Assembly: GCA_022072085.1 (NCBI GenBank)
Contig: JAJVII010000041.1
Location: forward strand, 62,001 to 126,000
Source: Phycisphaerae bacterium
GTDB lineage: Bacteria > Planctomycetota > Phycisphaerae > JAJVII01
Direction: 5' to 3'
Length of the DNA: 64,000 nt
The notes under the pieces are model-generated. The model worked only from the letters and a program-made list of their open reading frames with translations. It was not told where the DNA came from and made no database searches. A program made the position numbers and the translations under genes. The first letter of the stretch is position 1; each line of letters opens with the position of its first letter. This document shows positions 905 through 57,219 of this stretch, piece by piece.

Positions 905-2710
905 TCACCGCGGCTCAAGTGAAAGTTCCAGGACCGTCTGCCACGCCCCTTCCAGGTCGTGCGTGACCGTCGCGATCAGCGGCTCGCGGGGCTGGTCCGC
1001 GTCGCCGGCAGCAAACGACAGGCCCGCCCCGCCGATGCCGCGCACGCGGTCGCCGACCTGCCAGGTCGCGCTCAGCCAGGGCAACTCCAGCCGCCCGCCC
1101 GTGGCCGCGGATGGATGGCGGGCGATCAACTCGTCCAGCATCGCGGCCGCGGCGCCGCGGTCGTCGGCCTCGTCGGCCGGTCCGCCGGCGAACTGCGAAC
1201 CGGCGTCCACCCGGCCCCGCGCGAATCTCCCGGGCAAGTCCACGACGTGCTCGACGGTACGCCGCCCGCTCGGCCGCACCGGGTCGGTGCGCTCCACGCG
1301 CAGCCGCCGGTCGCTTTCGAGCGTCGCGGTGACCCGGACCGCCAGCGTGCCCGCGACGGCCGCCTGCCAGTAATCCGGCGGCAGCGGGTCGTCGGCGATC
1401 CGCACGCCGGCTTCGTTGTCCAGCACCTCGACGCGCCCGGGATGCCGCCGCCAGCTCGCGCCCGAGTCGTAGCTGACTTCGACCACGACGCCGCGCGACC
1501 GCCCGTCGTCGTCGCTCGACAGGCAGGGCAGCAGCCGTCGCGGCCGCAGCAGCGTCGCGCCGCCGAACAGGTCCGCCAGGTTCGCCGCCGGCCCGCGGCT
1601 GAAGGGCTCGACGCTCCAGTCGCCGCTCTCGTTGAGCACCCAGCGGCGATAAACGTCGCGCACCGCCGCGAAGCCGGCGCTCTGGCGCGTGAACGTCCGG
1701 TGATCGCCGCTCTCCAGGCCGGGGTCCCACCCGGCCACCAGGGAGAAGGTCGATTCCACCCGCTCGCGCTCGCCCAGGCCGATCCAGACGTGCCGTGCAT
1801 CGTCGTGGTCGAACCCCAGCCGCCCGCCGGCGATGTTGGTGGCCGTCGGATTCATCGACGCCCCGGCCCGCTGATGCCGCATCACCACGATGCGATCGCC
1901 GCCGCGTCCGAACCAGCGCATCCGCCAGCCCGCCCCGCCCAGCAGCGACTGGAGCGGCTCGATCGCGAATCCCGCGCCGGCCAGGTCCGCGAGTTTCTCC
2001 AGCGACTCCAGCAGACCTGCGCCGGTCAGTTCCAGACTGCGCGGGCGGACCTGGCCGCAGACCGACTCGACGCGCTGCCGCGAGGGCAGGGCGATCCGCT
2101 CGTCGGAGGCCAGGTGGACCGCGAGCAGATAGTTGATCGCGTCCGCGACCGACCAGAACGCTCCGCCTCCGGGCCGCTCGTCGCAGACATAGGTCAACCT
2201 CCCGTTGATCTCCGCTTCCGACAGCGACCGCGTCGGCCGCCCGTCGCGATTGAAGATCAGCCGGGCCGCGTCGATGAAGGCGACCGAATCGTCCGCGCCG
2301 ACGCCGTGCCGCCCGACCAGCCGCGTGCCGCCGTGGCGGTGCGTGACTCCGTCGAACGCATCCAGCAGCACGCGCCGGCGGCCGCCGTCGAACTCGACGC
2401 GGACCGCCGACAGGTGGCCGTCGAAGACAGGCCAGTCGGCGATCCCGCCGGGCCAGCTCGAGCGGACAATGCGGGCGCGGATGCGGCTGCCACGGTTGGC
2501 CAGCCGCCGCGCGTTGCCGAAGTCGGCCGACCGGCTGGTCCACTCGAACGTCGCCCGAGCGCCGGCCGCTCCCGCGCGCTGCTGCACGCGGACCAGCGAA
2601 AGCCCGGCCGTCTCGGCGCCCTCGACCTGCACCGCCGCCCGCCAGGGCCGCCGCGCCCGCCATGCGGCCGCGGGACGCGGACGCAGGATGATCGTTCCGC
2701 TCGTCATCAT
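905..2710 (-). CDS. Phage protein, possible baseplate hub or tail protein
   Basis: A protein of 601 residues starting MMTSGTIILRP. The start is set by GGAGG about 6 nt upstream and by ATGATGA overlap with the TGA of the preceding gene. A longer in-frame extension to 2827 lies wholly within that gene and is unlikely. The body is an even mixture of beta-strand-like segments with many Trp, Arg and Gly residues and no transmembrane segment. The order (after capsid, connector and fibre genes) and the size suit a tail or baseplate component, but no diagnostic motif is visible and the call is contextual. Confidence 0.5.
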   Translation of the reverse strand: MMTSGTIILRPRPAAAWRARRPWRAAVQVEGAETAGLSLVRVQQRAGAAGARATFEWTSRSADFGNARRLANRGSRIRARIVRSSWPGGIADWPVFDGHLSAVRVEFDGGRRRVLLDAFDGVTHRHGGTRLVGRHGVGADDSVAFIDAARLIFNRDGRPTRSLSEAEINGRLTYVCDERPGGGAFWSVADAINYLLAVHLASDERIALPSRQRVESVCGQVRPRSLELTGAGLLESLEKLADLAGAGFAIEPLQSLLGGAGWRMRWFGRGGDRIVVMRHQRAGASMNPTATNIAGGRLGFDHDDARHVWIGLGERERVESTFSLVAGWDPGLESGDHRTFTRQSAGFAAVRDVYRRWVLNESGDWSVEPFSRGPAANLADLFGGATLLRPRRLLPCLSSDDDGRSRGVVVEVSYDSGASWRRHPGRVEVLDNEAGVRIADDPLPPDYWQAAVAGTLAVRVTATLESDRRLRVERTDPVRPSGRRTVEHVVDLPGRFARGRVDAGSQFAGGPADEADDRGAAAAMLDELIARHPSAATGGRLELPWLSATWQVGDRVRGIGGAGLSFAAGDADQPREPLIATVTHDLEGAWQTVLELSLEPR

Positions 2711-10482: not shown

Positions 10483-10604
10483 GGGAACACGGATTTCACA
10501 GAGCGGACGGATTACGCGGATGATGCGGTCGGCTCGGCGGAACTCTTCCGACACTTCCCGATTCCGCCCGTGCAATCCCTTCCTTCCGTGAAATCCGTGT
10601 TCCC
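10483..10604. repeat. Palindromic element with 17-bp perfect inverted ends
   Basis: GGGAACACGGATTTCAC at 10483-10499 is mirrored exactly by GTGAAATCCGTGTTCCC at 10588-10604. Inside the arms are CGGACGGATTACGCGGATG words similar to those at 54011-54037. It occupies most of the space between the scaffold-like and capsid genes, and its right end is followed within 5 bp by the scaffold stop codon. Confidence 0.7.
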
Positions 10605-16171: not shown

Positions 16172-16819
16172 TCATTTGCGACGCAGAGCCGTCTTCCGTC
16201 TCCAGTAGTAGACCGGCCGGTCGGCCAGCCGCAGTTCGTTCATGCCCGCCCGCGCGAAGAACGGCACGTAGGCCCCCATCCGCGCGAACGCCTCGATCAG
16301 CGGAGCGTCCAGCGAGCCGAGCACCCGCCGCACCAGCCGCGTCGACAGGCCCAGCCCGCGATAAAGCGGGTGCACGATCACCCGGCTGATCGTCAGCACC
16401 TCGCGGTTCAGCCGCGAGAGTCCGACGCGGACGTTCGGCGGGGTGAAGTAGCGTCCGCATGTCGCCTCGTCCCGGGCGGCCGACCGCAGCGGCGGATAGC
16501 TGACCACCGCGACGGCGGCCACGCGCGGGTAGCCGCCCGTCCGCCAGAGCGGGCCGGCCCCGCGCGTCATCCCGGCCCGCATTGTCCAGACCGAGTGAAC
16601 CGTTGCCGGCCGACCGCTGAGATAGTGACGCTCTGCCAGCCCGAGGTAGTCCGCGAACGCCCCGCGCCCGAAGCGAAACGACAGGCCGAGATGGCTCTGA
16701 AGAGAAGGTTCGATGTTTGAAGATCGAAGTTCGAAGTCGGAGAAGAGGGGAACGGAGAGGACGCCAGACGGCTCTCCTCTTTCCTGCTTCGAACGTCGAA
16801 CAGCGAACGTCGAACTCAT
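16172..16819 (-). CDS. GNAT-fold acyltransferase-like protein (partner of phage ABC ATPase)
   Basis: A protein of 215 residues. The start overlaps the TGA of the previous gene as ATGA with GGAGGAG 6 nt upstream. Residues ~140-180 carry GNAT motif A (TISRVIVHPLYRGLGLSTRLV), with R/Q-x-x-G-x-G as RGLG. Residues ~98-112 give the central strands. This resembles the acetyltransferase half of COG2401, in which a GNAT domain is fused to an ABC ATPase; here the parts are separate genes. The phage Mu Mom DNA modifier is also a GNAT-fold protein. The first ~38 residues (SSTFAVRRSKQERGE...) are encoded by the palindromic element 16708-16819 and are probably not part of the ancestral fold. Confidence 0.65.
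   Translation of the reverse strand: MSSTFAVRRSKQERGEPSGVLSVPLFSDFELRSSNIEPSLQSHLGLSFRFGRGAFADYLGLAERHYLSGRPATVHSVWTMRAGMTRGAGPLWRTGGYPRVAAVAVVSYPPLRSAARDEATCGRYFTPPNVRVGLSRLNREVLTISRVIVHPLYRGLGLSTRLVRRVLGSLDAPLIEAFARMGAYVPFFARAGMNELRLADRPVYYWRRKTALRRK
16708..16819. repeat. Palindromic element, TTCGAACTTCGAAC family, translated as a protein N-terminus
   Basis: The left arm (16708-16740) has GTTCGATG, GATCGAAGTTCGAAGTCGG words and the right arm (16787-16816) mirrors them as CTTCGAACGTCGAACAGCG and AACGTCGAAC. Related elements lie at 18385-18420 and 29758-29863. The whole element is inside the GNAT reading frame. Confidence 0.7.
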
Positions 16820-29757: not shown

Positions 29758-29863
29758 GTTCGACGTTCGAAGTCGGAACCGGAGTCGGAGGAGAAGGTTC
29801 GGCTTACGAGTCTCGCGCAGTCTTTCCCGGCGTCGAACTTCGAACCTAGAACTTCGAACTTTG
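29758..29863. repeat. Palindromic element, TTCGAACTTCGAAC family
   Basis: GTTCGACGTTCGAAGTCGG (29758-29777) mirrors GTCGAACTTCGAACCTAG and AACTTCGAAC (29832-29861). It lies between nusB and ftsY and shares words with 16708-16819. Confidence 0.7.
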
Positions 29864-30848: not shown

Positions 30849-30894
30849 GGGGACAGGTCCGTTTTCGCGTCTTCGCGAAAACGGACCTGTCCCC
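30849..30894. repeat. Perfect 21-bp hairpin (GGGGACAGGTCCGTTTTCGC)
   Basis: The left arm 30849-30869 and right arm 30874-30894 are exact mirrors around TCTT. GGGGACAGGTCC-type hairpins are known to me as widespread extragenic palindromes sometimes linked to Y1 (REP-associated) transposases; none lies in this window. It sits between the divergent ribH and UbiA-type genes. It lacks a T-tract and may be a mobile palindrome, not a terminator. Confidence 0.75.
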
Positions 30895-54010: not shown

Positions 54011-54198
54011 CCGCAGATTACGCAGATTACGTAGATTCAAGATCAAGGAAAGACAAGAGAACCGCGAATGGACGCGAATGAACGCGAGTAGAGAAGTAGG
54101 GAGACTTGGGCCTTCCCTCCCTCATTGGCGGCCATTCGCGTGAATTCGCGGTTCTCCCGCTTCTTGGTACACGTCTGCGTAACTGCGTAATCTGCGAG
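54011..54198. repeat. Nested palindromic element, two word families
   Basis: The outer arms use CGCAGATTACGCAGATTACG (54012-54031) mirrored by CTGCGTAACTGCGTAATC (54175-54192). The inner arms use GAGAACCGCGAATGGACG (54057-54074) mirrored by ATTCGCGTGAATTCGCGG (54134-54151). The inner pair lies wholly within the outer pair. It fills most of the 380-bp gap 53862-54242, which holds no gene I can support. Confidence 0.75.
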
Positions 54199-56151: not shown

Positions 56152-57219
56152 CTAACTGGCGACGGCCGACAGGTCGAGGCCGGCCGTCTGGCCGGCTTGC
56201 AGGCGGTAGTAGCCCAGGCCGGCGTGCATCGCGGCGTTGTCGGTGCAGTACTTCGGCTGGGCCAGCAGGATCTCGATGCCCTCGCGCGCGGCGGCGGCCG
56301 ACAGCTCTCGCCGCAGGGCGCTGTTGCAGGCGACGCCTCCGCCGACGAAGATCCGACGCACGCCGGCGCGGGCGGCGGCCATCAGCGTCTTGCCGACGAG
56401 CACCTCGACGACGGCGGCCTGGAAGCTGGCGGCCAGGTCGGCCTTGTCCTGCTCGCTCATCGTGTCGGCGCGGGATTCGCCCTTCATGTTCTGGCCTCGG
56501 ACCTGGTAGAGGACGGCGGTCTTGATGCCTGCGAAACTGAAGTCGAGGCTGTCGCGGGCGAGCCAGGAGCGGGGCAGGGCGAAGCGTTTGGGATCGCCGC
56601 CGCGGGCCAGGCGGTCGATGATGGGCCCGCCGGGGTAGCCGAGATGGAGGATGGCCGCCACTTTGTCGTAAGCCTCGCCGGCGGCGTCATCGATGCACCG
56701 TCCAAGCGTCCGCGGCGGCGAAAAGTGGACCAGGTCCACTTTTTCTCCGGAAAGTGGACCTGGTCCACTTTTCTGGAGGTGGTAGAGGCTGGTGTGGCCG
56801 CCGCTGACGACCAGGGCGACGGCCGGCAACAGGTCGGCCGGCCCGCGGTCCAGGTCCAGCATCGGCGAAAAGGCGTGGCTGTGGATATGGTCCACCCCCA
56901 CCAGCGGCAGACCCCACGCCCAGGCCAGCGTCTTGGCGGCCGTCACGCCCACCAGCAGCGAGCCGACCAGCCCGGGCCGATGGGCGACGACGACGCCGTC
57001 CAGGTCGCCCCGTCCGACGCCGGCGGCGGACAGGGCTTCGGCCACCACGGCGTTGATCCGCTCGATGTGGGCCCGGCTGGCGATCTCCGGAACCACCCCG
57101 CCATATTTGACGTGCAGGGCGATCTGCGAGGCGACGATGGACGAGAGCACGCGCCGGCCGTCGGCGACGACGGCGGCGGCCGTCTCATCGCAACTGGATT
57201 CGATACCCAGCAGATTCAT
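56152..57219 (-). CDS. tsaD: tRNA N6-adenosine threonylcarbamoyltransferase TsaD
   Basis: A protein of 355 residues starting MNLLGIESSCDETA, with GAGGTGAG upstream. It makes t6A37 in ANN-decoding tRNAs with TsaB and TsaE. Motifs: IESSCDE, VVPEIASRAH (metal His), VDHIHSHAF (second His) and GRCIDDAAGEAYDKVA. Homologues read GGHTSLYHV directly to that last motif; here ~21 residues (QKSGPGPLSGEKVDLVHFSP) are inserted, encoded by the two palindromes at 56721-56771. The insert replaces the usual short loop near the active site and the frame is kept. Confidence 0.95.
   Translation of the reverse strand: MNLLGIESSCDETAAAVVADGRRVLSSIVASQIALHVKYGGVVPEIASRAHIERINAVVAEALSAAGVGRGDLDGVVVAHRPGLVGSLLVGVTAAKTLAWAWGLPLVGVDHIHSHAFSPMLDLDRGPADLLPAVALVVSGGHTSLYHLQKSGPGPLSGEKVDLVHFSPPRTLGRCIDDAAGEAYDKVAAILHLGYPGGPIIDRLARGGDPKRFALPRSWLARDSLDFSFAGIKTAVLYQVRGQNMKGESRADTMSEQDKADLAASFQAAVVEVLVGKTLMAAARAGVRRIFVGGGVACNSALRRELSAAAAREGIEILLAQPKYCTDNAAMHAGLGYYRLQAGQTAGLDLSAVAS
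56721..56771. repeat. In-frame double palindrome in tsaD (AAAAGTGGACC)
   Basis: AAAAGTGGACC-A-GGTCCACTTTT (56721-56743) is followed by AAAGTGGACC-T-GGTCCACTTT (56751-56771). Each is a perfect palindrome around one base, and together they form a larger inverted repeat with spacer TCTCCGG. This lies within the tsaD reading frame between the family motifs and is not part of any homologue I know. Confidence 0.85.

Follow-up and report, generated by a model that had tools for sequence, protein, structure and literature searches.

REPINs, as defined by Bertels and Rainey (2011, PMC3116915), are inverted doublets which fold into one hairpin. They occur together with singlets and with a cognate REP-associated tyrosine transposase (RAYT) that carries the same repeat nearby, and are expected in high copy number, in the hundreds, at extragenic positions. 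A second group, the TIRYTs or TIRtrons (Di Nocera et al. 2013, PMC3733652), consists of HUH Y1 transposases bounded by terminal inverted repeats (TIRs) instead of GTAG REPs. Their repeats form families that are dispersed in some genomes, some are self-complementary and many are arranged in dimers or clusters; the motif GGGGWSAS is common to some TIRs only. TIRYTs have been linked to RAYT subclass 2.1, whose members have a helix-turn-helix extension at the C-terminus and near whose genes PMC6006769 found no REP-like structures. REPs of the GTAG and CGTC families also lie in frame within genes in several phyla, including Opitutus terrae (Verrucomicrobia). More than half of these intragenic elements are dimers or groups coding for 20-30 residues, and REPs may also lie near, or supply, the stop codons of their neighbours (PMC3733652). 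The Rickettsia palindromic elements (RPE) of 105-146 bp (Ogata et al., as cited in PMC2229807) are palindromic selfish DNA in frame in conserved, probably functional proteins. Two of them, RPE-4 and RPE-6 of R. conorii, were assigned to the CGTC families, for which PMC3733652 found no associated transposase. Genic repeats of the TIR type are not described in the cited sections of PMC3733652, and none was found in the open-licence literature (titles and beginnings of abstracts; subscription papers are mostly outside this set).

The window, i.e. the whole stretch of DNA analysed, is 64,000 nucleotides long and belongs to a Phycisphaerae genome of 5.49 Mb in 72 contigs. An earlier note on this DNA had reported a palindromic element inserted in frame in tsaD, an essential tRNA-modification gene. 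As shown in Table 1, the element is real. It is made up of two units of AAAAGTGGACC(A/T)GGTCCACTTTT, each of 23 nt and separated by 6 nt, and is read in the tsaD frame. The claim that the two palindromes are inverted copies of each other was borne out as well. The arm given earlier has to be corrected in one detail: the palindrome pair is present, but the first arm of the second palindrome is GAAAGTGGACC, which has one mismatch to the arm that had been quoted. With up to one mismatch allowed, the half-site matched four times in the whole window, always inside the tsaD doublet, while shuffled sequences gave a mean of 0.24 matches and a largest count of 2. When folded as DNA, positions 56721-56772 (52 nt) formed a single 22-bp hairpin of -25.2 kcal/mol (z -9.6). 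Three doublets gave z values of -9.6 to -11.4, and one single palindrome gave -3.8. The palindrome is free of stop codons in all six frames. Stop-free design as a signal of selection was considered and rejected, because shuffling the arms left 36% of palindromes equally free of stops.

Table 1. Positions of the tsaD element, of the palindrome sites elsewhere in the genome (C, contig) and of the doublets at the RAYT locus L248.
Feature	Position	Strand	Remarks
tsaD coding region	56155..57219	-	355 codons, no internal stop; stop codon 56152-56154
Whole REPIN-like doublet, in frame in tsaD	56720..56773	.	23-nt perfect inverted repeat, arms 56720-56742 and 56751-56773 (100% complementary), 8 nt between arms
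A-centred palindrome AAAAGTGGACCAGGTCCACTTTT	56721..56743	.	11-nt arms, centre A
T-centred palindrome GAAAGTGGACCTGGTCCACTTTT	56750..56772	.	centre T
Interval of the earlier note	56713..56775	-	tsaD frame reads KSGPGPLSGEKVDLVHF and neighbours; net +15 residues vs relatives
In-frame site, GT2 glycosyltransferase	C16:71087
In-frame site, class-III aminotransferase	C27:2226
In-frame site, LuxE/LuxC-like	C46:13258
In-frame site, sulfatase	C57:13274
In-frame site, TIGR03960 radical SAM	C58:9573
RAYT gene	C54:28694-29392		PF01797 41.9 bits (cut-off 23); 233 residues
Doublet upstream of RAYT	C54:28619-28680		13 bases from the gene
Doublet at RAYT 3' end	C54:29366-29417		covers C-terminus and stop codon; 3'-end overlap with RAYT and ARMT1-like gene
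3'-end overlap, SBF transporter	C64:1417
Sites next to a stop codon (at most one base away) or overlapping it by a base	C1:162469, C16:26214, C54:28619, C57:4090, C64:2533
Site preceding a possible start codon	C37:7188
Doublets at L248 (G011)	332-417, 1410-1495, 2201-2286		one copy in opposite orientation

The tsaD product scored 375 bits against TIGR03723 (cut-off 296), and a search of the contigs of its own genome gave this one match only. Sixty relatives were searched, and the 29 best-scoring homologs of the 59 that matched were aligned. The stretch from SGGH to G..DDA has 30 residues here and 15 in 29 of the 29 class homologs, in agreement with the statement that TsaD normally has a short loop at this place; the extra residues, which the earlier note had proposed to look for in related planctomycetes, are absent from every aligned homolog. 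The note's figure of about 21 inserted residues holds in so far as extra residues are present, but the net gain is 15, and LYHL and LGR are separated by 23 residues. The nearest homologs in the aligned set are about 63% identical, so that a strain-level empty site lies outside the comparison. The one genome of the same family (87% complete) gave no match when searched for tsaD.

In the AlphaFold model of TsaD (mean pLDDT 91.4, a confident fold), residues ∼149-169 were disordered, with block pLDDT values of 52 and 61, between strands 143-148 and 170-175. The modelling proposed for the insert thus gave a TsaD of normal fold in which the disordered stretch caps a beta-hairpin. The closest structural match, over 328 residues with Z 45.1 and an rmsd of 1.6, was chain 6z81_B, the TsaD from a TsaBD complex. 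Of the 73 columns in which the 29 homologs are invariant, 70 are retained, including H111, H115 and D327, which we take to be the metal ligands. The altered residues are T175C, S230A and A298C, and T175C is close to the insert. Since the invariant residues are so largely retained, the enzyme is probably functional despite the insert, which would then be roughly neutral.

A count of the palindrome across the genome, with its genic share, had also been proposed. Twenty copies were found at 14 sites on 10 contigs, and six of the sites are inside genes and in frame. Twelve copies are exact, seven have one mismatch and one has three; a 21st match with three mismatches (C3:35907) was left out as probable chance. 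The reversed pattern had no match in the genome. At six sites the palindrome forms a doublet, its two units 3-16 nt apart, and the other eight hold singlets. The order is A-centred then T-centred in all five doublets with ordinary centres, and the sixth has a T-centred unit followed by a G-centred variant. Four of the eight palindromes inside genes read KSGPGPL and four read KVD(L/Q)VHF. None of 100 relatives carried the palindrome at up to three mismatches, while the reversed pattern gave one match in each of three of these genomes. The exact palindrome was also absent from genome_contigs, a set that possibly does not contain the genome itself. With copies nearly identical to one another and these two absences, the sequences fit a young, lineage-specific family.

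Three genes for Y1_Tnp proteins are present in the genome, and one of them, on contig C54, is flanked by the palindrome. Its product contains the motifs NHWH and YVEANP. When the whole protein was scanned with Pfam, Y1_Tnp alone was found (residues 12-125 of 233). The family NF047646 (REP-associated tyrosine transposase) matched residues 3-141 of 233 with 74.9 bits (E 5.9e-21), below its cut-off of 80. A 24-nt inverted repeat spans the gene, and because the second doublet covers the 3' end, the element itself supplies the final residues and the stop codon of the transposase. The two remaining Y1 genes (C1:239990 and C6:6804) have no flanking copies of the palindrome. We consider it very probable that the tsaD insert is a copy of a short non-autonomous REPIN-like doublet, mobilised by the C54 RAYT/TIRYT-type HUH transposase and tolerated in coding DNA.

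Besides the six in-frame sites, two sites lie over gene 3' ends, another five are at a stop codon and one precedes a possible start; gene calls at the stop-touching sites and at C37 are open-frame calls only. Seven of the 14 sites are therefore over a gene 3' end or at a stop codon by open-frame gene calls, and the hairpin has an A-tract, a GC stem and a T-tract, as would suit bidirectional transcription terminators or RNA-stability elements retained for such use. This explanation is very unlikely. A terminator within an open gene, the position of 6 of the 14 sites, would cut the message short, and REPs are in general frequent near gene 3' ends (PMC3733652), so that the position of the sites does not discriminate in its favour.

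Two further host proteins could be sized at the site of the doublet or singlet. Compared with 29 of 29 aligned homologs, the radical SAM protein is longer by 11 alignment columns. By residue count it has 25 residues vs 14-15, a gain of 10-11, in the 26 of 29 homologs that could be read by regex. The GT2 glycosyltransferase has 22 residues vs 14-15 in 26 of 28 readable homologs (+7 or +8; row L118, unaligned at the site, was dropped). The same stretch has 12 residues in L105, from a genome of the same family, and 20 in L107, a homolog with a separate insert. Homologs at the aminotransferase and sulfatase sites were too distant, or their loops too variable, for sizing. The net gain is 45 nt vs the 52-nt doublet in tsaD, about 33 nt vs a 23-nt element in the radical SAM gene, and about 21-24 nt vs a 49-nt element in the GT2 gene (30 nt against L105, 6 nt against L107). 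As the gains differ from the element lengths, either the junctions were altered or drifted, or host bases were lost. The LuxE/LuxC-like frame on C46 that holds the palindrome also contains a stretch FEVRSSK...RTSNFELRT, which belongs to another repeat, built on TTCGAAGTTCGAA. This repeat was seen at L099 (C46) 2524-2601 and at L091 97-109, and as one-mismatch pairs at 16723-16800 and 29759-29844 of the window.

Relatives of the C54 RAYT were found at 21 loci in genome_contigs, 17 of them with 47-54% identity. Fourteen of the 17 are titled Planctomycetota, Phycisphaerae or Planctomycetaceae, and the others Kuenenia, Doudnabacteria and an unnamed bacterium (one each). A RAYT match was present in 49 of the 100 relatives. 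Twenty-nine loci were fetched, and 20 had enough flank for analysis (9 were dropped). A terminal inverted repeat of at least 11 nt was detected at 13 of these 20 vs 1 of 76 control genes (87 fetched, 11 dropped for too small a flank). No clear terminal repeat was detected at the remaining 7 of the 20. Both RAYT motifs were recognised by regex at 18 of 30 RAYT loci. The repeats are genome-specific in sequence, and many follow the plan of A-tract, GC-rich core and T-tract. In all four other genomes tried, the RAYT repeat was dispersed, with 9, 7, 7 and 5 copies and controls of 0. Several of these 28 copies lie in long open frames, taken without gene models; none of them, nor any of the three doublets of L248, was established as an in-frame insertion into a conserved gene. 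At L248 (G011) the palindrome is AAAAGGTTCC(A/T)GGAACCTTTT, in three A-then-T doublets, two of which bracket the RAYT. Their spacer of 40-41 nt is nearly conserved, in contrast to the variable 3-16 nt of the genome studied here. L248 is an independent parallel to the tsaD-palindrome family, with the whole architecture and another palindrome.

A near-invariant, perfect palindrome in about 20 genic and intergenic copies could also be a parS- or SBS-like site, bound by a protein that organises the chromosome or acts in regulation, which arose in place and is tolerated by genes. We hold this to be highly improbable: at up to three mismatches the palindrome occurs in 0 of 100 relatives, it is in part arranged in A-then-T doublets and it flanks a RAYT, three host proteins exceed their homologs in length at the site, and the RAYT relatives have different repeats of similar design. 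That the TsaD loop is an ordinary insertion with a coincidental palindrome, or an assembly artefact, is scarcely credible, as the same 23-mer recurs at 14 sites, all 29 aligned homologs have a 15-residue loop and no copy lies closer than ∼1.4 kb to a contig end, although the genome is a draft of 72 contigs and loop length varies at some other host sites.

Mobilisation of the doublet by the C54 RAYT is suggested by the linkage of gene and palindrome, by the repeats of similar plan at its relatives and by the hairpin. Single-stranded doublet DNA would fold into one hairpin, which the transposase would cut and rejoin at new sites. As the palindrome has no stop in six frames, a copy with a net length change divisible by three would be translated through. 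The tsaD copy would in this way have given rise to 15 extra residues at the beta-hairpin tip. Against this reading stand the 20 copies, which are few for a REP family, the missed NF047646 cut-off, the variable spacers, the 7 of 20 RAYT relatives with no clear terminal repeat, the net gains that differ from element length and the three altered invariant residues of TsaD.

The locus has in common with TIRYTs the HUH Y1 transposase with terminal inverted repeats instead of GTAG REPs, and dispersed, self-complementary repeats that are in part dimers. It differs in that 6 of its 14 sites are in frame in genes. The motifs HuH and Y---NP are present, but the middle W of NHWH is outside the residues listed for this position in PMC6006769 (L, V, I, F, Y, M). 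GGGGWSAS is absent from AAAAGTGGACC, which is indecisive because only some TIRs have this motif (PMC3733652). Inverted doublets forming one hairpin, singlets and a nearby cognate RAYT with the same repeat are shared with REPINs (PMC3116915). In contrast to those, there are 20 copies, no GTAG tag, unconserved spacers of 3-16 nt and genic placement at 6 of 14 sites. Like the intragenic GTAG and CGTC REPs, the monomers and dimers lie wholly within ORFs of known proteins or supply stop codons; unlike them, 0 of 28 outer boundaries of the palindrome sites have GTAG or CGTC tags. The cited sections of PMC3733652 do not name tsaD. The in-frame position in conserved, probably functional proteins is shared with RPE; in a comparison by length and tags, RPE are longer than the 52-nt doublet, which moreover has a linked RAYT (PMC2229807, PMC3733652).

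The earlier note took the palindromes for an independent, unrelated set tolerated by proteins. They are indeed dispersed, in frame and absent from the relatives searched, but a wholly independent kind is not supported, with a RAYT flanked by the palindrome and in-frame REPs already published. As in-frame REPs and TIR-type RAYT repeats have both been described, the tsaD insert is no new kind of element; measured against the cited sections of that literature, their combination here is new. In one genome, in-frame coding palindromes are tied to a RAYT that they also bracket on either side, in contrast to the CGTC elements, including the two Rickettsia types, for which no associated transposase was found (PMC3733652). 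Repeats termed extragenic can thus add peptides to an essential enzyme, and insert, insert-free homologs, host structure and probable mobilising enzyme together make a compact testable case. A bolder idea, which we think rather unlikely, is that a Planctomycetota RAYT lineage evolved protein-compatible terminal repeats, i.e. perfect, odd, stop-free palindromes extending even over the transposase C-terminus, with each genome having its own palindrome on the A-centre/T-centre plan, as here and in L248. If true, such repeats would give RAYT elements access to coding regions as places to insert in a dense genome.

Other inverted repeats were seen in the window. At 30849-30894 two divergent ORFs, presumably ribH-like and UbiA-like, are separated by the perfect inverted repeat GGGGACAGGTCCGTTTTCGCG, whose loop is 4 nt long. 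This repeat has GGGACAGGTCCGTT in common with the terminal repeat of the L195 RAYT and fits the GGGGWSAS TIR motif published in PMC3733652. Imperfect inverted repeats at 10483-10604 (37 nt, 81%) and 54057-54156 (29 nt, 86%) are possibly further small palindromic elements.
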